This document shows positions 25,139 to 61,424 of a stretch of 64,000 nt of DNA, in pieces. The notes beneath the pieces are model-generated. The model searched no databases, was not told where the DNA came from, and worked only from the letters and a program-made list of their open reading frames with translations. The position numbers were made by a program, and so were the translations under genes. The stretch comes from a virus. Every line of letters begins with the position of its first letter. The stretch's first letter is position 1. The DNA lies in IMG/VR virus record IMGVR_UViG_3300028377_000003, positions 1 to 64,000 of that record. The stretch is one strand, 5' to 3'.

Positions 25139-25518
25139 CGGGCGTCCCCTCGGAGGGCCTCCTCAACGGCCATGTGTGCCCTCTGAGTCGCTTCCCATTG
25201 GGCAAGGTTGTTGCCCACGGCGTCGACAACACCCACGTTCAACCCTTCGTTTTCAAGGTACTCGACAAGCGCTTGCATATCTTCGTAGCTGTTGCCGCCC
25301 ACATTGAAACTGAAAAGACGGTCGGTATTTTCGGAGGGATGCGTCCACTTGCTGTAGATGGTGGCGAAATGGCCGTCATCGTCTTCGAGTTGGTACCAGT
25401 CCATGTACTGGTCATCGCAGAAACCATTAGGGTCGCCGAACAGTGCTTTCAGTTGGGCAGGGACCAGTTCTACATATCCCTGAAGGTGGCCGCCGTAGTT
25501 ATCAGTCTTTTTGAACAT
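25135..25518 (-). CDS. Unknown protein
   Basis: 127 aa, MFKKTDNYGGHLQGYVELVPAQ. Alpha/beta with FATIYSKWTHPSENTDRLFSF and a helix at NSYEDMQALVEYLENEG. Own promoter at 25568-25596. First gene of a two-gene operon with 24653. No family recognised. Confidence 0.7.
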   Translation of the reverse strand: MFKKTDNYGGHLQGYVELVPAQLKALFGDPNGFCDDQYMDWYQLEDDDGHFATIYSKWTHPSENTDRLFSFNVGGNSYEDMQALVEYLENEGLNVGVVDAVGNNLAQWEATQRAHMAVEEALRGDAR

Positions 25519-27044: not shown

Positions 27045-30000
27045 TTAATCTGAAAATTGCGTTCTCAAGAAAGCACTTGGTAACCCTCCATACGCGGCCA
27101 CCACGTCGTCCACCCGGTCCATAAGGGCAATTGTTTCTTCAATGCGGCTTATTACGTCTATAAGGTGATCGGTGTCGCCAGCGGTGAGTTCTCTGTCGTC
27201 ACGTTTGCGGTAGTAAAGCCAGCGGCTCAGCACCTGGTGCCCACCCACATGAAACTCCCACACTTCTTTTGAAACGTCCGCGATATATGTTGAGTCGTTT
27301 ATGTACAGACGTCCCATGCCTTCACCTTCTTGGATGTACTTATTTCGTTCTGTTACTAAAAGGCTTTTCCCATGCTTGAAGCGCGCTTTCGTAGTTGGTG
27401 GCGCAGTCTTGCCTAGATGTAGGACAAAGAGGTGCTCGCCAAGGATTACCAACTCTTCAAAGAGGTCCTTTCTAAGAGCTGGTGGAATCCTCGGAAAGTC
27501 CAACTTGAGAGCCTCGAAATAGGCTTCTCTGTATGTGGGGGAGTGAAGGACGGCATAAATATAGTGCAGGCAGTCTAACGCCGGAACGTTCCAGCTTGAG
27601 GGCACAATATCATCCTGTGAAAGATTGCATGCTTTCTCTCGCGACTGATCGCCACCTTCCTTTGCCAAATGCAGTGGAAATGCATAACAATTTGTGCCTC
27701 TGCTCGGCGAAAGAAAGATGACATCCATGAATGTTTCGCTGATAAACGCATGAGCAAAGCTCTGATCACGAATGATTTTGGATGCTAATAATACAGGCCC
27801 TCTGCCGATATGTCCGTGTAACGCTGTAACACCCCTAGTCCAAAGATTGTTGTCGTAGTATGTCCATCTTAGATCAAATGGGCGATAAGCGTACTCGACT
27901 ACTTTCGCTGGGTCGAATTGGTAATCGACTGGATACTCAGCAAGATTACGTTCTGCTTCCGTGAGATTGAGTTCTTTGTCCTCTTGCGCAGCTTTAAGCT
28001 TTTGCCTCTCGATCTTCTGCCGGTGGGCCGCTAGTTTCGGAATTACATCTTCCCGGTTATAGCTGATCAACAAAGAGTCTTTCCCCGGCTTTCCAGCTAC
28101 GTTAGAGAATTTAAAAAGATCGTCGAGTTTCACAAAGGACTCATATACTTCTTCGTGATTAGCAACATAATCTTCGTCACGTGGAATGAACAACCAGTAG
28201 GGTGCGCGAAGGTCCAAATCGAAACTGGTGACTCCGTCAACATTTGAGCGGAGTAATGAGTACTTGGCTTCGCGTGTCCCAGTAATAGCGCGATAGTGAA
28301 CCGATGTACGAGATGAATCACCACCTGTTTTTACCGCAAGCGTTACAGAAGTAGCCTCAGTAATAGGGGGGAAGACATTGTCATCAGGCTGAACTCCATC
28401 TGTAGTGGCAGTTGTGAGTTTGCCGGTCTCTTGAAGGTCTAAGCAGTCTATGAAGTCAAATGTATCAAGATGATGTCGGCGGATCCCTCGGTGGATACGT
28501 CCAGAATAGAAAGTGTTATTACTCACTAAGGCCGCAATTCCGAGGTTGGTCAGCTCTATCCAGTGTTCAGCTATCCGCCAAAATTTTATGTAGTCGTCAT
28601 CTAGCGGCTGGATGTTACCTTCATGAGCACGGACGGGATCTTTATAAGCGGCAACGAGGGCATCGATGTGGGGGTTTTTGTTCTTTGTACTGCGGCTATA
28701 TGGAGGATTACCTACAATCACAGTGAGAGCTGTTTCCCCTTTGACTTTACTGGCCTCGCGAGATTCGTCCGTTAGATTAACTATCCTCGTCCAGTCAAGC
28801 TGAGGCGTGCTGGTCAGTGGGGCCTCTAGCGCATTCGTCAGGAATACATTTATACGGCTATCGTCGGTAGGTTCATATCCCGTTGCTTGCAGAGTAAGTG
28901 CGAGCTTGATGTGACATACGGCATATGGAGCAACCATTAGCTCGAAACCGTGGAGGCGAGGCAGTAGTGAGTCCTCCACGTATTGCGACCAGCTATCAGC
29001 TTCGAGCTTTTTGGTGGTGTCCTTCGATGCAGTACAGAATTCATGATGGATTACCTCAATCACATGCTTGAGGAATGTTCCCGTTCCCGCAGCTGGATCA
29101 AGGATTTGAACCAGAGGCGAATCCGGGTCTGCGACTGGAGGAATGGAGATTTTGGGGTGGCGTTCGACGTACTCCGCCCAGGTGGTGGTGTCAGCAAGCC
29201 CAAGAGGGAGGTGGAGGTTCTCTTTTAAGTGCTGATTTACGGACTCGACGATGTGATGGACCAGCGGATCAGGGGTATAGTATACGCCCCGTTCCTTTCT
29301 CGTTACTGGATCGTACTCCTGCAAAAATGGTTCATAAAAGTGTATCACTGGGTCGGTAGAGATCGTTGGTTCGCCATCTTTGTGGCCGAATATCTGCTCT
29401 ATTTGAATGCGATCAAGGAAGTTGGCGATATCCTCCAATAGCCATTTCTGCTTGGGATCGAAGTTCTCTTGCAGCACGGTCTGAAAGAAACTTCTGAGGA
29501 ATGGGCTGGTAGTCGGCATGTGGTCGAGAGCTGTCTCACGCGTAAAGCGATCCCCCGATACTTGAAATTGGTCTTTTGATATCCACCGAGCTGATAGAAG
29601 CCCATAGGCAAGTGTTTGCGCGTACGCATCGGCAAACTCCTCCTCTGTTTGGTTGTGGATAAGCGCAGCTGTAAATGCTTCATATAGCTTGCACATAGGT
29701 CCATCTTCTTTCTCCGCTTTAAGCTGACGGATAGCTAGGCGTCGAAGATAACGGGCCCTATACGCCAGTTCTTGAGCTAACTCGGTCTGGTTTTCCACCT
29801 CTGCCCGGCTTACCATAAAGAACCGCGAAAGCATGGAGATTAGCCGCGCCGGCCCGATGTAATTGGCTCCTTTCTTTAACAGCTTACCCCGGAGCTCTCG
29901 GTCCCCTTGCCAGAGACCGACCTCGAGCGATGTCTCATCCTTTTGGTCAGTGGTCGGGTAGATAACCAAGACGTTGTGGAAGCGATTGTACTTTTGAAGT

Positions 30001-31100
30001 CTATCGCGAAGTGTATCCGCATCTTCGCCATTTTGGGGCAGGTACACTATGTAACCGAGGAGTCTGTTGGCGACATCATGAATCAAAAAGCCCTTGAGTG
30101 GGTTTTCAAATCCATCCGGCAAGTTCCGGTCCGGATCGATCCCAATATCATGATCACTTAGCAAGTGTCTCCGCGTGACTCGTGCTTGATGGTCATCTGC
30201 TTCGAGACCAAAACTCAGAGCGATTTCCTCGAGGAGATTCGTTATCACATCTTCAAACGATTCTTCAGTCGCTTGACCGCTCAGGACATCCAGGAGCTTT
30301 CTAGCTTCGCGGCGCTCTTCTTCGCGCGCGAACGCCTGTGACCACTTGCCTTCTTGAAGCGGGGCTACGAATCGATGAAAGAGTTGTAGCGTGTAGTCCT
30401 GCTTTAGCTGTGGCTCCCAGGTCACAGCCTCTTGACGTACAGAAAAGCTCTCCATCGGTGGGTGGTCGATCTCAGAAGAGCCCTGAGCGTCCTCCCCTTG
30501 CCGCACGAAATGGACGAGGTGTGCGATGCGCTCGTCGGAAGCACGGTCGTCACGAACCGATAGAACAATCATCGTTTGTTCAGGTCTTCCTACGGGGACG
30601 TACTCTCCGCGTTTGTCCGCGAACGCTTTCTGCTCGTATTTGGCGAATCCCTTCAGTGCCGCTTGGCCAAAGCGATCGAGGGCGTCCTCAATTAGATCCA
30701 ACTTCGCTGCTTGAGGAAAGAGTCGCTTTGATTCCTGCAGCAACTCGCGGCCGGTGGAATCAAATTCGATGATGAGAGTGTGGAAATCGCGACCGTTATC
30801 CGACGGTGCTATATAGTGAACCTTTTCCGGCAGATATTGTAAGGCGCGGTGGTCGGCCTTTAACACCTTATCGCGAGGCCAACCGCTAGGTTCTGCACCT
30901 AGAAGTCGTCGTAGCAAATGACGCGCAAAACTGATCGAGTCCGCGCTGAGGTGCGAACCTCCATCGTTCCGCACCGGCTTGGCCCCTGGGCGTGCGAACT
31001 GTGTTGAGGATCGTGTTGGCCCATCTTCCTCATCTGGCGCAGGTGCGCCAGCGTCGGCAGTAGGATTCTCGAAAAATTGACGAAATTCTTGGAGGTTCAT
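27045..31100 (-). CDS. Large ISP/N6-adenine DNA methyltransferase with target-recognition domain
   Basis: 1351 aa from MNLQEFRQFFENP. The methyltransferase core has YYTPDPLVHHIV, DPAAGTGTF (668-676, SAM binding) and NPPY (798-801, catalytic), typical of N6-adenine enzymes. The C-terminal 400 residues (YRPFDLRWTYYDN, AHAFISETF, SPSRGTNCYAFPL) match the specificity domain of Type ISP restriction enzymes. The helicase of full ISP enzymes is absent, and the N-terminal 600 residues are unassigned, so it may be a methylase for self-protection or a Type IIG-like single-chain enzyme. Codon use looks less uniform than in neighbours, hinting at acquisition from a bacterial restriction system. Confidence 0.85.
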   Translation of the reverse strand: MNLQEFRQFFENPTADAGAPAPDEEDGPTRSSTQFARPGAKPVRNDGGSHLSADSISFARHLLRRLLGAEPSGWPRDKVLKADHRALQYLPEKVHYIAPSDNGRDFHTLIIEFDSTGRELLQESKRLFPQAAKLDLIEDALDRFGQAALKGFAKYEQKAFADKRGEYVPVGRPEQTMIVLSVRDDRASDERIAHLVHFVRQGEDAQGSSEIDHPPMESFSVRQEAVTWEPQLKQDYTLQLFHRFVAPLQEGKWSQAFAREEERREARKLLDVLSGQATEESFEDVITNLLEEIALSFGLEADDHQARVTRRHLLSDHDIGIDPDRNLPDGFENPLKGFLIHDVANRLLGYIVYLPQNGEDADTLRDRLQKYNRFHNVLVIYPTTDQKDETSLEVGLWQGDRELRGKLLKKGANYIGPARLISMLSRFFMVSRAEVENQTELAQELAYRARYLRRLAIRQLKAEKEDGPMCKLYEAFTAALIHNQTEEEFADAYAQTLAYGLLSARWISKDQFQVSGDRFTRETALDHMPTTSPFLRSFFQTVLQENFDPKQKWLLEDIANFLDRIQIEQIFGHKDGEPTISTDPVIHFYEPFLQEYDPVTRKERGVYYTPDPLVHHIVESVNQHLKENLHLPLGLADTTTWAEYVERHPKISIPPVADPDSPLVQILDPAAGTGTFLKHVIEVIHHEFCTASKDTTKKLEADSWSQYVEDSLLPRLHGFELMVAPYAVCHIKLALTLQATGYEPTDDSRINVFLTNALEAPLTSTPQLDWTRIVNLTDESREASKVKGETALTVIVGNPPYSRSTKNKNPHIDALVAAYKDPVRAHEGNIQPLDDDYIKFWRIAEHWIELTNLGIAALVSNNTFYSGRIHRGIRRHHLDTFDFIDCLDLQETGKLTTATTDGVQPDDNVFPPITEATSVTLAVKTGGDSSRTSVHYRAITGTREAKYSLLRSNVDGVTSFDLDLRAPYWLFIPRDEDYVANHEEVYESFVKLDDLFKFSNVAGKPGKDSLLISYNREDVIPKLAAHRQKIERQKLKAAQEDKELNLTEAERNLAEYPVDYQFDPAKVVEYAYRPFDLRWTYYDNNLWTRGVTALHGHIGRGPVLLASKIIRDQSFAHAFISETFMDVIFLSPSRGTNCYAFPLHLAKEGGDQSREKACNLSQDDIVPSSWNVPALDCLHYIYAVLHSPTYREAYFEALKLDFPRIPPALRKDLFEELVILGEHLFVLHLGKTAPPTTKARFKHGKSLLVTERNKYIQEGEGMGRLYINDSTYIADVSKEVWEFHVGGHQVLSRWLYYRKRDDRELTAGDTDHLIDVISRIEETIALMDRVDDVVAAYGGLPSAFLRTQFSD

Positions 31101-31223
31101 ATCACATCCTGAGTGAAGCAATTATCGAGCGTCGTACTGCTTATTGATTAGGAGTCGTTACATCGGCAGCGACGACACCAAGGCTGCGGAACTTTACCAG
31201 CTCAGTCACCGCTCCATATTCCA

Positions 31224-38407: not shown

Positions 38408-38477
38408 ACGGCCTCCATTTTATCAATACGTACCAATCTTAATTGGTACCGTAAGACCTAAGAGGCTGTCAAGGGTG

Positions 38478-40773: not shown

Positions 40774-41180
40774 GGGGACGCACTGGTTTCGACCGGAGCT
40801 GACGAAAATGGACGTCGCGTTCTGGCGGGTGTATGTGACCGCCACAAACAAAGACATACTCGTTCAACTGACGAAACTCAGTACGCAGCGGCAGCATAGC
40901 CGTTCGTCCCACCTCGGACTCCGATAAAAGGACCGGGACGTAAATGGTCGGAGATCCCGCTTTACCCTTCGGTGACTAGGGTACCTCATAGAAGCCAGTC
41001 TATAGGTGGAGGTTGTAATCACTAACCCCTTGAGGGTAGTAGACTAGAGGCAAGCAAAGACGACCGCTCGACTTGCCATCAAATCCCTTCGCAGGGTAAT
41101 AGAGCAAATGGTCGCTATGTACGTAAGACGACGTTTGTGAGTAGAGTTCCGACACGAGGGTTCGACTCCCTCCGTCTCCA
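40774..41180 (+). ncRNA. ssrA: Transfer-messenger RNA (tmRNA)
   Basis: 407 nt one-piece tmRNA, which rescues stalled ribosomes and tags the unfinished protein for proteolysis. The 5' end GGGGACGCACUGGUUUCGACC is the family signature. GGGGACG pairs with CGUCUCC at the 3' end to form the acceptor stem, next to a T-arm GAGGG-UUCGACU-CCCUC. The tag frame ends STDETQYAAAA before UAG at 40897, aligning with the E. coli ANDENYALAA tag but ending AAAA. CCA is not encoded after the discriminator A. Its own promoter precedes it and a strong terminator follows. A free-standing HNH nuclease gene directly follows. Confidence 0.95.
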
Positions 41181-41181
41181 T

Positions 41182-41227
41182 AATCCCCTTGTAGAGCTTC
41201 TCTTGTAGAGGTTCTACAAGGGGATTT
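41182..41227 (+). terminator. Strong Rho-independent terminator of tmRNA
   Basis: AATCCCCTTGTAGA pairs with TTCTACAAGGGGATT, followed by a U-run; about 14 bp stem. Confidence 0.92.
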
Positions 41228-42855: not shown

Positions 42856-44340
42856 ATGTATCTGAGTAAGCTCTACGGTCATTCGCTTACGCTCCTAACC
42901 GACCTTTACCAACTCACGATGGCCTATGGCTATTGGAAACAAGGGCGGCAACACGACGAAGCGGTCTTCCATCAGTTTTTCCGACAGAACCCTTTCGGGG
43001 GAGGTTACGCAATCGCTGCCGGGCTAGGCACGCTCGTCGAATACATGCGTGATTTCCATTTCGATTCCGAAGACCTCGAATACCTGTCGAGCCTTCAAGG
43101 GAACGACGGCAAGCCCCTGTTCGAACAGGGATTCCTCGATTACCTCAAACACCTCACTTTCACCTGTGACGTTGACGCCGTACCAGAAGGTTCGGTCGTT
43201 TTCCCACACGAACCTCTGGTCCGCATTCGTGGCCCGCTCATTCAGTGTCAGTTGTTGGAATCGGCCCTCCTGAACATTATCAATTTCCAAACGCTTATCG
43301 CCACCAAATCAGCCCGCATCTGTGAGGCCGCCAAAGGTGAGCCGGTGCTGGAGTTTGGGTTGCGTAGGGCGCAGGGGATTGACGGATCCATCATGGCGTC
43401 GAGGGCAGCTTATATCGGAGGCTGCTCTGCTACGTCCAACGTACTCGCTGGAAAGCTACTGGATATTCCGGTCAAAGGGACACACGCTCATTCGTGGATT
43501 ATGTCCTACGACTCGGAAATGGAAGCCTTCGAAGAGTACGCTGAGGCCATGCCCAACAATTGCGTGTTCCTTGTGGACACTTACGACACGATCGAAGGTG
43601 TCAAAAACGCTGTGAAAGTGGGCAAGAAGCTCCGTGAACGCGGCCATGAAATGGTCGGTATCCGGTTGGATTCCGGGGACTTGGCCTACCTCAGTATCGC
43701 GGCTCGTCGCATCTTGAATAATGCCGGGTTCGAAAACGCTAAAATCGTGGCGTCGAATGGATTGGATGAGCACACTATCAAGTCGCTCAAGTCACAGGGC
43801 GCTTTGATTCGCCTCTGGGGTGTAGGCACCAACCTCGTCACAGCGAAGGGACAACCGGCGTTGGGTGGTGTGTATAAGCTATCCGCTATCAAGCGGGAAG
43901 GGGGCGAATGGGAACCCCGCATCAAGCTGAGTGAACAACGTATCAAAATCAGCAATCCCGGTTACTTGCAAGTGCGTCGGTTTTTCGACGGCAATGAGTA
44001 CCGGGGCGACATGATTTACAACGAGCACCAAGGCGATCCCGGTACGACTATCGTCGATCCGATGGATAACACTCGCCGCACGAAATTGGATTTCGACCAA
44101 TCCATAGACATGCTACAGTCGGTCTTTAGAGGCGGCTTGGGCGATTCTGTGGTTGAAACGTACCAAGAAGAACCGTTGGATGCTATCAAGCAACGTGCCC
44201 AGCGTGAAAAGGCGCGTTTCCACGGTGGTGTCCGCCGTTTCACCAACCCGCACCAATACCCGGTCGGTCTGTCTAAGCCGCTCGACGAATTGCGTACCCA
44301 ACTTATTCTTGAAGCCCGTGGTCACGGAGACGACGAATGA
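42856..44340 (+). CDS. pncB: Nicotinate phosphoribosyltransferase
   Basis: 494 aa, full length. It joins nicotinate to PRPP with ATP to make nicotinate mononucleotide. Seen: [18 protein letters not shown] (N-terminal signature of this family), [28 protein letters not shown] (with the histidine phosphorylated in the reaction), and [11 protein letters not shown] and [21 protein letters not shown] (substrate pocket). AAGGACG ribosome site. It overlaps nadE by 4 bases (ATGA). First enzyme of the operon. Confidence 0.95.
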
Positions 44341-46283
44341 AGTACGTCCGTATAGGAGCCGCTTCCCTCAACCAGACACCTCTGGATTGGGAAGGAAATA
44401 TCGACCGAATCATCAAAGCCACGGAAGAAGCCTCCGCCAAAGGCGTCCAGATGCTGTGCCTCCCTGAGCTTTGCATCACGGGCTATGGTTGTGAGGATAT
44501 GTTCTTATCCCCCCACGTCCATCAACGAGCACTTAAAGCCTTGGATAAACTCAAGGATCTCGGGGACTTCGGGATGCTTACGGTGGTGGGTCTTCCGGTC
44601 GTCTACGGCAACGGGATCTACAACTGCATGGCCGTGATACAAAATGGCCGCATCGAAGGTCTTGTCCCCAAGCAAAATCTCGCCAAGGATGGTGTGCATT
44701 ATGAGCATCGCTGGTTCAAGCCGTGGCCTCCGGGGCAAATAGGTTCTGTTTACATCCCCCAAATAGGGAAAGTTCCTATCGGGGATTTCGTATTCGAAAC
44801 GCGGAACGGGATTCGGCTTGGCTTTGAAATTTGTGAAGACGCATGGGTCGCTGACCGGCCCGGATCCCACCTTGCTCAAAGAGGTGTGGATGTGATTTTC
44901 AGCCCGTCTGCTTCCCACTTTGCTTTCGGCAAACAAAAAGTGCGGAGGCAATTCGTGGTTGAAGGTTCGAGGGCCTTTAGTTCGGCCTACGTCTATGCCA
45001 ACCTCCTTGGCAACGAATCCGGGAGGCTAGTATTCGACGGTTCCACTTTCATCGCATCGGGTGGTGAGGTGCTTGTGGAAGGTGAGCGGTTCTCGTTTCG
45101 GGACCACACTACCGTATGCGCAGATGTGGATCTTGACACACTCCACATGCAACGTTTCAGCCGGGAAGGTTTTAGGCCCGAGGATGAAGACGAACGCAAC
45201 GTTTTGTCGATCGGAGGTACGACCACCGAAAAACTCCGACAAAAGGCGCAGCCTGCTGTCCCCCAGAACCTGTCCAAGTTCGAAGAATTCAGCCGCGCCG
45301 TGACCTTGGGTATGTTCGATTATTACCGCAAGTCCGGCGTCCGGGGCTACGTCGTATCCCTGTCCGGTGGTGCTGATTCTTCGGCGGCTGCCGTACTGGT
45401 ATACCTCATGAGTAAGTACGCAAAAGAGGCATACACCAAAGAGGAACTTGCCGCCAAGCTGGCGCATAACGGCTATACAGGCATGTGGCCCGAGCGTCTT
45501 TTGACATGCGTCTATCAAGCAACACACAACTCCTCGGAAACAACCCGTGAAGCCGCTGAGATGGTCGCTAAGGCTATCAACGCCAAGTACGTAGAGCTTG
45601 ATGTAGACCCTATTGCTATGGCTTACGAGGAGCTAATAGGGGACGCCTTGGGTATCGAATGGGAATGGGAAAAGCACGATGTGGTTCTCCAGAACATTCA
45701 AGCGCGCACCCGGAGTCCCTCAGCGTGGATGATAGCCAATGCCGAAGGCAAGATTCTGTTGGCGACCTCCAATCGTTCGGAAGCGGCGGTCGGATATGCT
45801 ACGATGGACGGAGATACTTCGGGCGGCCTGTCACCTCTCGGAGGCATTGACAAAGCCTTCTTGCTTGAATGGCTGCAGGAAATGGAAAAAGAAATCCCGG
45901 AACTTAGGTACGTCAACAACCAAAAACCTACGGCGGAACTCAAGCCGGAAGAGTACGACCAGACTGACGAAAGCGACCTCATGCCTTACGAGGTGCTGGA
46001 CCTTATCGAAAAGCGAGCTATCCGGGACAAGCTAAGTCCGGTGGAAATTTTCGAATGGTTCCAGTACAACACGGAACACGAAGCGGTGAAGCTCGTGGAA
46101 TGGATCGAAAGATTCTTTCGACTGTGGTGCCGCAACCAATGGAAACGCGAACGCTACGCACCGTCGTTCCATTTGGACGACGAAAACTTGGACCCCAAGA
46201 CGTGGTGCCGTTTCCCTATTTTGTCAAGTGGTTTCGAAGAAGAACTAGAAGCCCTTCGATCGAAAATCAAAACCTCTGATTAG
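44337..46283 (+). CDS. nadE: Glutamine-dependent NAD+ synthetase
   Basis: 648 aa. It makes NAD from nicotinate adenine dinucleotide, ATP and glutamine. The N-terminal nitrilase-type glutaminase has [11 protein letters not shown] (E44), [10 protein letters not shown] and [10 protein letters not shown] (Cys nucleophile); the C-terminal synthetase has the PP-loop SLSGGADSS (342-349) and [13 protein letters not shown]. Full length and intact. It overlaps pncB and is followed 9 bases later by the nicotinamidase gene. Confidence 0.95.
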
Positions 46284-56613: not shown

Positions 56614-56648
56614 CAGAAAATAGCCCCCGGTCAAAGCGACCGGGGGCT
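56614..56648 (-). terminator. Strong Rho-independent terminator
   Basis: AGCCCCCGGTC pairs with GACCGGGGGCT (11 bp, 5-nt loop) followed by UAUUUUC. It ends the Ro60 transcript. Confidence 0.88.
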
Positions 56649-56656
56649 TGATGGGT

Positions 56657-58279
56657 TTACAGATTCCCGTTGATGAACTCGTTGAGCAATGTAGGCACCG
56701 AAGTGTTACATCCCACGATATCAATCATACCGGGATCCTTGGGGTCTGCGATGGTGTTGCGGCTGGCTTCCATCGCCACAACAGCTACCCGTGACCCATT
56801 GTTCCGGGACTGCCGGTACTGATCAAGCGCCTGCTTGGGGTGGATATCCCCATACCACGTTTCGCTATCCGTGTAAATAACGAAAGCGTCGAAGTCCTTT
56901 GCCGTCCGCTTTGCCCATACCATCGGAAGGGCACAGTCGGTACGTCCGAAAGGAATGCCAGAGATGCTTTTGATCACATCGTCCAGTCGCTGACGGGGCG
57001 AAATGTTCAGAGGGATGAAATCGTGGGAAAAGCCCATGATTTCATAGTTCTCTTCGGTCCGCATCACCGTCATCGCCATCGCGGCACTTACTTCACGGGG
57101 CGTCAGACCTTCCAGTCCTGCCACCGATCCCATACCCATCGAACCGGACACGTCGAGAGCAAGGCAAATGTTCTTGCCGGTAGGCTCCACGAAATCGAAA
57201 GCGGCGTAGAACGCATCGTCCAGAGCATCCGTGATCTTCGGAACCGGATTCCATGTCAACGAACCCCGGAAACCTCGGCCCCTAGCGTAAGTACGCTGGG
57301 CATTCAAAAGATTGAGAGGGTGAACCCGCGCACGCTTGAGGTATTCCCGGTCCGTTAATCGCTCGACAACAATTTTCGTAGCATCCGACGTGTTCGTCAG
57401 GAGGCCCAAAGAGGTCATCTTGGACAGGTTACGGATCGTCGCCCACAGAGGCATTTTCTGTAGGAGTTGCTCCCAGACTTTGACGTCGTTGAGGAACTCC
57501 GTGGGGATGCACTCACGAGGCAAATTATGGTTTTCAATCAAACCGATAAGCTGCTCGACCGAACCCGCTTGCTTCGCACGTTCGAAAGCCCACACCCTTT
57601 TGAGGACTTCATCGGATTCCGCGTCGGAAACCAGTGTCCCCTGTGCCGCCCAATGATATAGGGCGTCACGGGTATCGTTTTCCGGCTTGACATGCGCCTT
57701 GAGCAACATGTCACGGTGTGACCAACCATTGCGGTTCTGATATTTGATCATCTGATAGGCCACGTCATCGTCAGACTTAGCCTTGTACCAGTTCTCAAAC
57801 GCCCGCATCGTGACACGTCCCCACCCGCCAAATGGCTTGATGAACTCTGCCAGTTGCGTGAGGTGGTAAAAAGTACGGCACACTTGTGGGACTGCTTGGG
57901 CCGCAGCACGCCGGGTTTCAACGGATTGCTCCGTGCCGTCATTGAACTTCAGCGCCAAAGCCAGTGCAAAGATGGCCGGATCGTTTCGGACAGCGCGACC
58001 GCTATCGGAAATATCGACGATGCGTTGTACCGTTGCGGGGCCAGCTACCCGGAGGCAATCGTTCACGGCTTTCGCATTGTCCACCGTCAGGTTGCGCTCG
58101 GTGACGTAATACGACCCACCTTCGGAACCGAGAATCAAAAACCGATCAAGTCGCTGCTGCATGTCGACTTCGTAACCAAAGCCTCCAGCATTGTTCTTGA
58201 TCTGGTCTGCGCTAATCGGCTCATCTTGGGGAGTCGCACCCGTCTTCTGGTCTGTCTTGAAATGCTTCGAATAATCCAT
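56657..58279 (-). CDS. Ro60-like (TROVE plus von Willebrand A) RNA-binding protein
   Basis: 540 aa. Residues about 25-350 form the TROVE HEAT-repeat ring (RFLILGSEGGSYYVTERNLT, AVRNDPAIFALALALKF, GWGRVTMRAFENWYKAKSDD); 370-535 a vWA domain with the metal site DVSGS (376-380) and YTDSETWYGD. Ro60 binds the ends of misfolded RNAs and Y RNAs, and in bacteria (Rsr) works with exoribonucleases. The leader holds a structured Y-RNA-like element (58289-58386). The ribosome site GGAGG directly abuts the element's closing stem. Terminator at 56614-56648. Confidence 0.92.
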   Translation of the reverse strand: MDYSKHFKTDQKTGATPQDEPISADQIKNNAGGFGYEVDMQQRLDRFLILGSEGGSYYVTERNLTVDNAKAVNDCLRVAGPATVQRIVDISDSGRAVRNDPAIFALALALKFNDGTEQSVETRRAAAQAVPQVCRTFYHLTQLAEFIKPFGGWGRVTMRAFENWYKAKSDDDVAYQMIKYQNRNGWSHRDMLLKAHVKPENDTRDALYHWAAQGTLVSDAESDEVLKRVWAFERAKQAGSVEQLIGLIENHNLPRECIPTEFLNDVKVWEQLLQKMPLWATIRNLSKMTSLGLLTNTSDATKIVVERLTDREYLKRARVHPLNLLNAQRTYARGRGFRGSLTWNPVPKITDALDDAFYAAFDFVEPTGKNICLALDVSGSMGMGSVAGLEGLTPREVSAAMAMTVMRTEENYEIMGFSHDFIPLNISPRQRLDDVIKSISGIPFGRTDCALPMVWAKRTAKDFDAFVIYTDSETWYGDIHPKQALDQYRQSRNNGSRVAVVAMEASRNTIADPKDPGMIDIVGCNTSVPTLLNEFINGNL

Positions 58280-58288
58280 GAAACACCT

Positions 58289-58386
58289 CCATTGTTGGGT
58301 GCGGACTTACAAACGAGCAAGTCCAATGAGTTACGTAACGGCTCGTATAGGTACGAGCGAAGATACGTAGTAGCACCCAACAATGG
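58289..58386 (-). ncRNA. Y-RNA-like structured element in the Ro60 leader
   Basis: 98 nt on the minus strand. A perfect 14-bp terminal stem (CCATTGTTGGGTGC with GCACCCAACAATGG; 58373-58386 and 58289-58302) encloses a hairpin GCTCGTA-CCTA-TACGAGC (7 bp), supported by outer TACGTA pairs, and a second hairpin GGACTT-(10)-AAGTCC (6 bp). A long closing stem with internal arms next to a Ro60 gene is the arrangement of bacterial Y RNAs (YrlA-like). It could also be a cis element that controls Ro60 translation, since the stem ends at the ribosome site. A TTGACA box at 58391-58396 lies upstream, but no good -10 is found. Confidence 0.6.
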
Positions 58387-58405
58387 GAAGTGTCAAACGT
58401 ATTCC

Positions 58406-58996
58406 TTACCAGTAGAACCCTTCAATGTCGCCTTTGTAGATTTTATCGCGGGTTTTTTCGAGGATGCTTCTGATTTTGCTAGGGAAAGGGAACATCCAAA
58501 AATACATCCCACCCGTGAATTTTTTGGCGATAAACGAAATCATCCATTCCGGGATGTTCCCGTTGAGTTCATAGTGGGCTACCATCGTCGCCGTGTAACC
58601 GCGAAGCTCCCAATAGGCCCGCATCGTAAAAATGACGGGCAACACACAAATGAAACTCAAAGGGAACCAGATAGGATGCTTTCGTTGGTCGAGCAAGTGC
58701 ATCACTTCATGCCGCACGATTTTGTATACGTTGGCGTCCGTCCAATCACCGTAAGTGGATCGGCTCGGCAATACGAGGGTGTTCCCTTGCAAGCCGTTCG
58801 AATAGCGTTCGTTGAACTTTTTCTTGAAAGAGGCGACGAAAAACCCCACGAAACCAACAAAGAGCCACGCAACAAACGTACTGAAATTCGTCTTGTGCCA
58901 GCCCGGTTCGTCTTTGTAAACCACTTTGAAATCAGGGATTTCCCGATCAATAAAGTCGCGAAGTTCTTGGACCTTTTCTAACGGTACCTTTGACAT
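58406..58996 (-). CDS. Membrane-anchored HExxH metalloprotease-like protein
   Basis: 196 aa. KIVRHEVMHLLD (HExxH 96-100) and AYWELRGYTA (E130, possible third ligand) around two hydrophobic segments (residues 40-57 and 108-125). The form resembles small membrane-bound M48/M56-like proteases, but the family is uncertain. GGAGATACG before ATG. It ends 20 bases before the Y-RNA-like element. Role unknown. Confidence 0.65.
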   Translation of the reverse strand: MSKVPLEKVQELRDFIDREIPDFKVVYKDEPGWHKTNFSTFVAWLFVGFVGFFVASFKKKFNERYSNGLQGNTLVLPSRSTYGDWTDANVYKIVRHEVMHLLDQRKHPIWFPLSFICVLPVIFTMRAYWELRGYTATMVAHYELNGNIPEWMISFIAKKFTGGMYFWMFPFPSKIRSILEKTRDKIYKGDIEGFYW

Positions 58997-60357: not shown

Positions 60358-60909
60358 ATGAAAAGACTGACAGTTGCATTCGTAGCCCTCACCGCCTTAG
60401 TAGCCTGTGAAAATGAGGAGTTACTTGAAACCCAATCCCAACTGGCGGACGCCCGCCAAGAGATCAGTGACCAAGAAACTACCATTGCCTTGTGCGAAGA
60501 CACGGCTCAGAAAAAGCAAGCCGAACTTTGCGAAAAACTGAAAACGGTCGTCGAAACGTACCATGTCCAATACTTTGAAGTTGGTGACGAAGATGTAGAC
60601 GTTCCGTGCAATCCTGCTGGCGGGGATTTCAGCGTGCGGGTACACAAAGACGACACCCAACGAGGATGGGCGTACCTTCGTTACGATATCAATGGCAACA
60701 CCCGTTTCAGTGACCGACTCGTCTATGCGGTCAATGGTGGGACGGCGAACTACGACGGGAAAGCAGATCGAAACTCCCTCCGTGTGATCGACCCCACATT
60801 CAGCGATTCGGTTTTGCTGTCCGTTGAAAGCTGTGACGCCGACACGGATACTTGCTCACTTAGCTGCCGAGTCCTTGCAAACCACCACGAAACGACATGC
60901 ACGCAATGA
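60358..60909 (+). CDS. Lipoprotein
   Basis: 183 aa. Signal peptide MKRLTVAFVALTALVAC with lipobox LVAC; mature start C17. Then a helical region (LLETQSQLADARQEI) and a C-terminal domain of about 110 residues with cysteines. Lipidated phage proteins can block superinfection or act in lysis (Rz1-like); neither is shown. AGGAGAT site. It overlaps the sigma gene as ATGA. Confidence 0.8.
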   Translation: MKRLTVAFVALTALVACENEELLETQSQLADARQEISDQETTIALCEDTAQKKQAELCEKLKTVVETYHVQYFEVGDEDVDVPCNPAGGDFSVRVHKDDTQRGWAYLRYDINGNTRFSDRLVYAVNGGTANYDGKADRNSLRVIDPTFSDSVLLSVESCDADTDTCSLSCRVLANHHETTCTQ

Positions 60910-61424
60910 ACGGCCTTGATCTTACAAAGCACTACGAAGACGTAGTTCGAATCGTTTACGCTAAATTCGGAGCCGAGGCCGAAGACCCCGACGACTTGGT
61001 GCATGACGTGTGCGAAAAGATCCTCAAGCTCAACCAAGGGTCCAGCCCGTATGTAGCTTCGAGGTGTGCGCCCTCGACCTACATCTATATGGTGGCGAGG
61101 GGTGTCCTGATCAAGCAACTGAACCGGGACAAAGTTCCCGAAGGCGCGGATACTGCGTCTTTAATTCCTAGATCCGGGCACCGAAAAGTGTGCTTGCTTG
61201 AATGGAATGAAGAGTTGCTCAAAGGCTTCGAACAGCACCTGAAAGATTCACTCACTTTCGAAGATACGCTACCACGGCGTGTGTTCCTTTTGCTTCGCAT
61301 GGGCTACACACGAAAGGAGATTTGCAAACTCCTTGACGAAACCCTCTACCAAGTCAAGAAGCAAAAGGGGAGGCTTCGGGACCTTGCTGAGGACTTCATC
61401 GACGACCTGCATCCGTCCCGATGA
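60906..61424 (+). CDS. ECF-like sigma factor
   Basis: 172 aa from ATG 60906. Region 2: EDPDDLVHDVCEKILKLN, then STYIYMVARGVLIKQLNRDK, the pattern that binds core polymerase and the -10. Region 4: LPRRVFLLLRMGYTRKEICK, LLDETLYQVKKQKGRLRDL, an HTH that reads the -35. The linker is short and there is no anti-sigma nearby. It could switch host polymerase to late genes; the plus-strand genes lack the common early promoter. It overlaps a convergent gene by 29 bases. Confidence 0.7.
   Translation: MNGLDLTKHYEDVVRIVYAKFGAEAEDPDDLVHDVCEKILKLNQGSSPYVASRCAPSTYIYMVARGVLIKQLNRDKVPEGADTASLIPRSGHRKVCLLEWNEELLKGFEQHLKDSLTFEDTLPRRVFLLLRMGYTRKEICKLLDETLYQVKKQKGRLRDLAEDFIDDLHPSR

Follow-up and report, generated by a model that had tools for sequence, protein, structure and literature searches.

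The closest described systems to the DNA between ro60 and its upstream gene in virus record IMGVR_UViG_3300028377_000003 (G000; 129,690 bases, of which bases 1-64000 are called the window) are the translational switches of phage T4 and the Y RNAs bound by Ro60. In the leaders of T4 gene e and I-TevI, the ribosome site is sequestered in early RNA that comes in from upstream, and the late promoters are encoded in the 5' strand of the sequestering structure and give transcripts that lack this strand (PMC3014915). T4 gene 43 belongs to a set of autogenous operators, in which the gene's own product binds a hairpin tens of bases upstream (PMC3014915). In Y RNAs, Ro60 binds primarily at a bulged cytosine, which is conserved in bacteria (PMC4030889). 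The window carries a 98-nt structured element directly before ro60. Based on the evidence presented here, it is likely (probability about 0.62) that this element is a cis-acting leader that acts as a translation switch set by the start of the transcript.

The leader of ro60 and its putative promoter

The open reading frame at 58279-56657 (-) matches the Pfam families vWA_Ro60 (E=4e-60) and TROVE (E=1e-38). Its product matches the solved structures of Deinococcus radiodurans RSR (2nvo, E=3e-117) and Xenopus Ro60 (1yvp, E=4e-114) over its full length, and the TROVE HEAT-repeat ring and vWA domain span it end to end, which bears out its initial annotation as a Ro60 protein with both domains. A DVSGS motif of the metal ion-dependent adhesion site (MIDAS) type can also be read in the protein. 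The element occupies the gap between the stop of the upstream gene (58406) and the ro60 start codon (58279). The features of the locus are as follows.

58406..58996, minus strand: upstream co-directional gene, 196 amino acids, source of the putative read-through RNA
58391..58396, minus strand: -35 hexamer TTGACA of the putative ro60 promoter, 6/6 match
58373..58390, minus strand: masking strand CUUCCCAUUGUUGGGUGC, consisting of the 5' arm (58386-58373) and CUUCC able to pair with GGAGG
58386-58373, minus strand: 5' arm of the closing stem, CCATTGTTGGGTGC, part of the 14-bp perfect stem
58367..58372, minus strand: -10 hexamer TACTAC, preceded by TGC (extended -10), spacing 18; weak (3/6), a family variant
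58358-58341, minus strand: hairpin 1, GCUCGUA-CCUA-UACGAGC, flanked by CUUC and C-G; resembles a swapped-order Ro60-binding hairpin
58324-58303, minus strand: hairpin 2, GGACUUGC-UCGUUU-GUAAGUCC, from the fold
58302-58289, minus strand: 3' arm of the closing stem, GCACCCAACAATGG, perfect 14-bp pairing
58286..58290, minus strand: Shine-Dalgarno sequence GGAGG, read in the sequence; pairing about 1.0 in the predicted read-through RNA
56657..58279, minus strand: ro60, 540 amino acids, TROVE and vWA domains, Pfam and PDB matches
56622..56648, minus strand: terminator-like hairpin 3' of ro60, from a consensus scan only

The predicted fold of 58392-58286 has a free energy of -53.3 kcal/mol, compared with -22.7 +/- 3.2 kcal/mol for shuffled sequences (z=-9.55). 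This fold and the sequence itself confirm the 98-nt element as first described, closed by a 14-bp stem without mismatches and enclosing two hairpins. Perfect inverted repeats of at least 14 bp with a spacer of at most 200 occur twice in the 64 kb and in none of 10 shuffles; one is the ro60 element and the other, at 41182, lies directly 3' of a transfer-messenger RNA (tmRNA) gene. The 3' arm does lie at the GGAGG, as first proposed, but it does not simply abut it, because the final two bases of the arm are the first two of GGAGG (58290-58286). The gap between the arm and the start codon is 9 nt instead of the 10 bases originally given. Moreover, the upstream CUUCC (58390-58386) is complementary to the whole GGAGG, and because it can pair with all of it the ribosome site is approximately 100% paired in the predicted read-through RNA. 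Opening this site is predicted to require 12.9 kcal/mol in read-through RNA versus about 6.3 kcal/mol in RNA from the gene's own promoter.

The spacer of the putative ro60 promoter, CTTCCCATTGTTGGGTGC (18 nt), is the masking strand 58390-58373, base for base. The promoter family to which it is related, TTGAC[AG]-N12-TAGGGTATA, has 32 sites in the record versus 0.6 in shuffled sequence, and these lie mostly 5' of minus-strand genes. This arrangement suggests a mechanism in which RNA entering from the upstream gene would include the 18-nt strand 58390-58373, which would pair around GGAGG and hide the ribosome site. A phage promoter lying exactly over the masking strand (-35 at 58396-58391, -10 at 58372-58367) would instead give an RNA that starts at about 58360, lacks the masking strand and has hairpin 1 as its first predicted structure. 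In such an RNA the ribosome site would be freed and translatable. The initial annotation had left open whether the element acts in trans, in cis or both and had missed the promoter; the overlap of promoter spacer and masking arm supports the cis option. The inverted repeat might also function as DNA, as an operator that overlaps the promoter and is bound by a dimeric repressor or activator. While the repeat is perfect and one arm is within the promoter, the two arms are 70 bases apart and the record holds no second copy of an arm elsewhere, making this explanation very improbable.

Comparison with related phages, which had been suggested as a check, supports the leader as a switch. The only close relative found, L018, is in a 437-kb record; its Ro60 shares 58% identity and falls with that of the window in a supported clade of the tree. 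A protein scan with the window and L018 Ro60 alone did not find a third. The leader of L018 has the same layout as that of the window, and the stem sequences are unrelated. Specifically, it contains TTGACT-N12-TAGGG-TACCAC 113 nt from the start codon (117 nt in the window), a type of site found only 3 times in the 437 kb. In its predicted fold, the sequence around the ribosome site is paired with TAGGGTACC from the promoter; opening that site is predicted to cost 6.1 kcal/mol in read-through RNA and 2.4 kcal/mol in own-promoter RNA. Another record, L002, shows no difference over 7.6 kb and adds no comparison. When the element DNA was searched for in annotated phages and the hairpin in viral contigs, only this twin record had a match beside a Ro60 gene, and none of the other six matches encodes a Ro60 relative. 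A plain stem for mRNA stability or temperature dependence, with neither promoter dependence nor a role for Ro60, is quite unlikely. Any masking device could use a long, fully paired stem that covers the ribosome site, but this explanation accounts neither for an arm that is the promoter spacer nor for the recurrence of the layout in other letters in L018. In addition, about 13 kcal/mol to open the stem is much for a thermometer.

Several observations weigh against a switch set by the transcript start. The -10 hexamer of ro60 is a poor one, with 3/6 positions matching, and the spacer measures 18 rather than 17. A weak hairpin persists in the own-promoter RNA, located between ribosome site and coding start. 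Masking was not seen as a general rule among the genes with a family promoter. The inner leader of L018 alone is not unusually stable (z about -1.5), and the layout is known from two genomes.

The promoter family can be written TTGAC[AG]-N12-TAGGG-TATA[AG]G, often followed by TTAGTG. Its minus-strand sites include window positions 448, 6552, 7814, 12232, 13056, 20230, 34165, 39864, 40219 and 53553, with more in the record. At the family promoter at 38472 (-), which has the inverted repeat GGTACCAATTAAGATTGGTAC at its -10, the ribosome site is predicted to be hidden in read-through RNA (0.99) but not in the promoter's own RNA (0.41).

Y RNA features in the element and the record

The position and closing stem of the element raised the possibility that it is itself a Y RNA. 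Ro60-relative loci were drawn from phages, viral contigs and bacterial genomes. Among these, Y RNAs adjoining ro60 have a closing stem ending in GG[CU], a bulged C, a G, a second stem, GGUUAYC, ACUUG or ACUUA, and a 3' arm. Counting non-redundant loci, 50 of 85 from phages and 54 of 70 from bacteria have the Y RNA motif within 1.5 kb upstream of ro60, in agreement with the earlier statement that phage Ro60 genes are often beside Y RNAs. A covariance model built on 44 Ro60-adjacent Y RNAs (R1) recovers Y RNAs in many Ro60 loci. Run with filters off on the whole 129.7-kb record, including the window and its element, R1 gives no match; its best score is 13.5 bits (E=1.5), within a gene. Rfam yielded nothing relevant for either the window or the element, even with the E-value limit raised to 10.

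The sequence of the element agrees with these searches. It possesses a terminal stem joining both ends (14 bp), as in Y RNAs. The helix end GG[CU]-C-G with a bulged C opposite CUU[GA] is absent, the closing stem ending in GGGUGC-UAC / UCC-GCACCC. The element has neither the CUU[GA] (3' CUUG) strand before the 3' arm nor GGUUAYC after the second stem, where only GUAUC is found. For the tRNA-like module of the YrlA class, no T-arm-like GUUCRAAUC can be read in the element, and there is no tRNA or Rfam match. Hairpin 2 includes ACUUGCUCGU, a second strand complementary to the ACGAGC of hairpin 1, and pairing of ACGAGC with GCUCGU would give the strand order of a Y RNA; this alternative is about 18 kcal/mol worse and was rejected.

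Based on these features, the element 5' of ro60 is probably not a free Y RNA. A divergent trans-acting Y RNA, with the 98-nt element excised or separately transcribed and bound by Ro60, is unlikely. It would have the position of the Y RNAs in many related loci and the expected closing stem and inner hairpins, and no other Y RNA was detected across the 129.7-kb record. However, every conserved sequence feature is missing, including the GGYCG and bulged C expected where the closing stem ends internally, the CUU[GA] strand and GGUUAYC, and R1 is negative. Furthermore, the whole 98-nt element would not come from the putative ro60 promoter because its 5' arm is the promoter spacer. The nearest relative, L018, combines a leader of similar kind with a Y-RNA-like sequence at a separate place, flanked by tRNA-like sequences.

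The latter sequence, at L223 460-540 (-) in the L018 record, is a weak match to the Y RNA model (E=0.385). It has a long closing stem, GGGUUAUC and CUUGACC, while its A strand, GGGUGGUAUGCCG, deviates from GGYCG, and it reads as a divergent Y RNA. Ro60 phages can keep Y RNAs far from ro60, since matches to the Y RNA model lie away from the gene in the records of L043 (465 kb) and L058 (462 kb). Because the record may be incomplete, the phage studied here may have an unseen Y RNA. Matches to the strict Y RNA motif at 25488, 27079, 98319 and 118012 in the record were rejected, as none scores with the Y RNA model; those at 27079 and 98319 sit within long open reading frames.

Strand-swapped hairpins before ro60 genes

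The Ro60 of the window appears equipped to bind such RNAs. In the alignment its K179, R183 and H196 correspond to vertebrate K170, R174 and H187 and are invariant among 7 relatives. K170 and R174 are Y-RNA-binding residues. H187 is a vertebrate Ro60 residue for Y RNA binding (PMC4030889). Because these residues are conserved, the phage Ro60 is expected to bind Y RNA or an RNA that mimics it.

A candidate mimic is found at the ribosome sites of other ro60 genes. In one example, ACCUUG-CUCGUG-GGUUU-CACGAG-C-C-GAAUAAGGAG, the flanks and stem base of the hairpin are both strands of the Ro60 helix of Y RNA (GG[CU]-C-G / CUU[GA]CC), joined at the opposite end. Defined as a stem of at least 5 bp with U before it and C-G after it, within 70 nt of the start, this swapped hairpin precedes 24 of 88 non-redundant ro60 genes from phages (Fisher p 6e-18) and 8 of 71 from bacteria (p 2e-5); among 640 control genes that have a ribosome site, 7 carry it. 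These values apply to loci clustered at 92% identity, which does not make them independent, and the pattern was first spotted in some of the counted leaders, whose start codons were re-chosen by rule. The phage cases include 11 in a jumbo-phage clade and others in about nine lineages of the tree. In three cases (L020, L037 and L212), the G-C at the stem base is exchanged for A-U together with GGGUCG, the same exchange seen in Y RNAs, and covariation across 14 leaders exceeds that in all of 500 shuffles. The swapped hairpin does not replace the Y RNA, because at least 17 of the 32 loci with the hairpin also carry the Y RNA motif. Taken together, these sequence patterns make the swapped hairpin a candidate autogenous operator, and one that is apparently unreported.

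A hairpin of the form CUU-G/A...C/U-C-GA occurs in the last 20-40 nt before ro60 at L069, L058, L062, L057, L046, L087, L028, L005, L010, L204, L212, L020, L037, L025, L123 and others.

The resemblance of hairpin 1 to this class is suggestive. It shares the GCUCGU...ACGAGC stem and the C-G, and differs in having C rather than U adjoining the stem and GUU in place of GAA after the bulge. With a model of the swapped hairpin (R2), it scores 10.4 bits, the second-best match in the 64 kb on both strands (128 kb of strand). Four more matches as good or better lie in the other 65.7 kb, or about 6 in the 129.7-kb record; by chance, about 0.0025 would be expected in the 107-nt leader. The top R2 match, at 58815-58867 (+) with 21.8 bits, is antisense within the upstream gene and has ACCA for CCG and a 20-nt insert in the loop. 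It was rejected as probably due to chance despite its low rough E-value.

An autogenous operator, in which hairpin 1 would imitate the Y RNA helix and be bound by Ro60 present in excess over Y RNA, blocking or locking the ribosome site, is a tentative proposal that is on balance doubtful. It is favored by the enrichment and covariation of the swapped hairpin at the ribosome sites of phage and bacterial ro60 genes, the presence of the hairpin at the sister locus L025, the shared GCUCGU...ACGAGC-C-G and R2 rank of hairpin 1, and the Y-RNA-binding residues retained by the phage Ro60. Against this, the two flanking positions differ, hairpin 1 sits 62-79 nt before the ATG and not at the ribosome site, and its R2 score is only 10.4 bits (E about 1 in 64 kb), with that of L018 weaker still at 7.1 bits. 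Such an operator is compatible with the promoter switch as a second layer, through which Ro60 would limit its own synthesis.

In a wider and still tentative reading, for which the odds fall somewhat short of even, the ro60 genes of phages and some bacteria would be autogenously controlled by the swapped Y-helix hairpin, with Y RNA and mRNA competing for Ro60. The window element would be a diverged member of this group, having both the hairpin and a masking stem with an embedded promoter. If Y RNA and ro60 mRNA compete in this way, Ro60 would therefore be matched to Y RNAs by the cell or phage. No account of translational control of Ro60 synthesis was found in the literature searched. Binding of Ro60 to swapped hairpins would explain how cells match Ro60 to Y RNA and would add a second natural Ro60 ligand. 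These hairpins span about ten independent lineages, including the cultured bacterium Sorangium cellulosum and Streptomyces phages.

Neighboring features and comparison with described systems

The 196-amino-acid product of the gene upstream of ro60 (58406..58996) has no Pfam or PHROG match; its C-terminal residues, KGDIEGFYW, are like those encoded upstream of ro60 in L018, SGEISGLYF. Elsewhere in the window, a phage tmRNA gene (40774-41183, plus strand; Rfam E=6e-21, tag DETQYAAAA) is followed by the strong hairpin at 41182, and no tRNA genes were found across the whole record. Genes for a nicotinate phosphoribosyltransferase and a glutamine-dependent nicotinamide adenine dinucleotide (NAD) synthase adjoin at 42856-46283 (+) as an NAD salvage pair. 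A 1358-amino-acid protein resembling type ISP restriction-modification enzymes (N6 methylase and Type_ISP_C) is encoded at 27045-31121 (-). A weak match to sigma-70 region 2 at 60897-61424 (+), just under the cut-off (Pfam E=4e-5), may indicate a phage sigma factor.

Compared with the described systems, the element is like the YrlA-class Y RNAs found next to rsr or ro60 in its site before ro60 and the long stem joining its ends. It lacks their GGYCG with a bulged C and their CUU[GA] strand, and has neither the UUAYC loop nor a tRNA-like module. The swapped-order hairpins of other ro60 leaders share GCUCG...CGAGC-C-G with hairpin 1, which is farther from the ribosome site and differs at two flanking positions. 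As an operator, hairpin 1 would be similar to that of T4 gene 43 in its place tens of bases upstream and in its proposed binding by the gene's own product. Unlike that operator, it would mimic a Y RNA ligand, and the binding is putative.

Overall, the closest likeness is to T4 gene e and I-TevI (PMC3014915). The ro60 leader has a predicted structure that hides the ribosome site in the upstream transcript, and within the 5' strand a predicted promoter, with a poor -10, whose spacer is the arm 58390-58373 and which would yield RNA without that strand. In contrast to the T4 genes, the gene controlled is ro60, the promoter is TTGACA-like and not a T4 late promoter, the own-promoter leader retains a further hairpin, and the arrangement is a predicted one. 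If this reading is correct, the phage would meter Ro60 by the origin of its transcript, as T4 does lysozyme.
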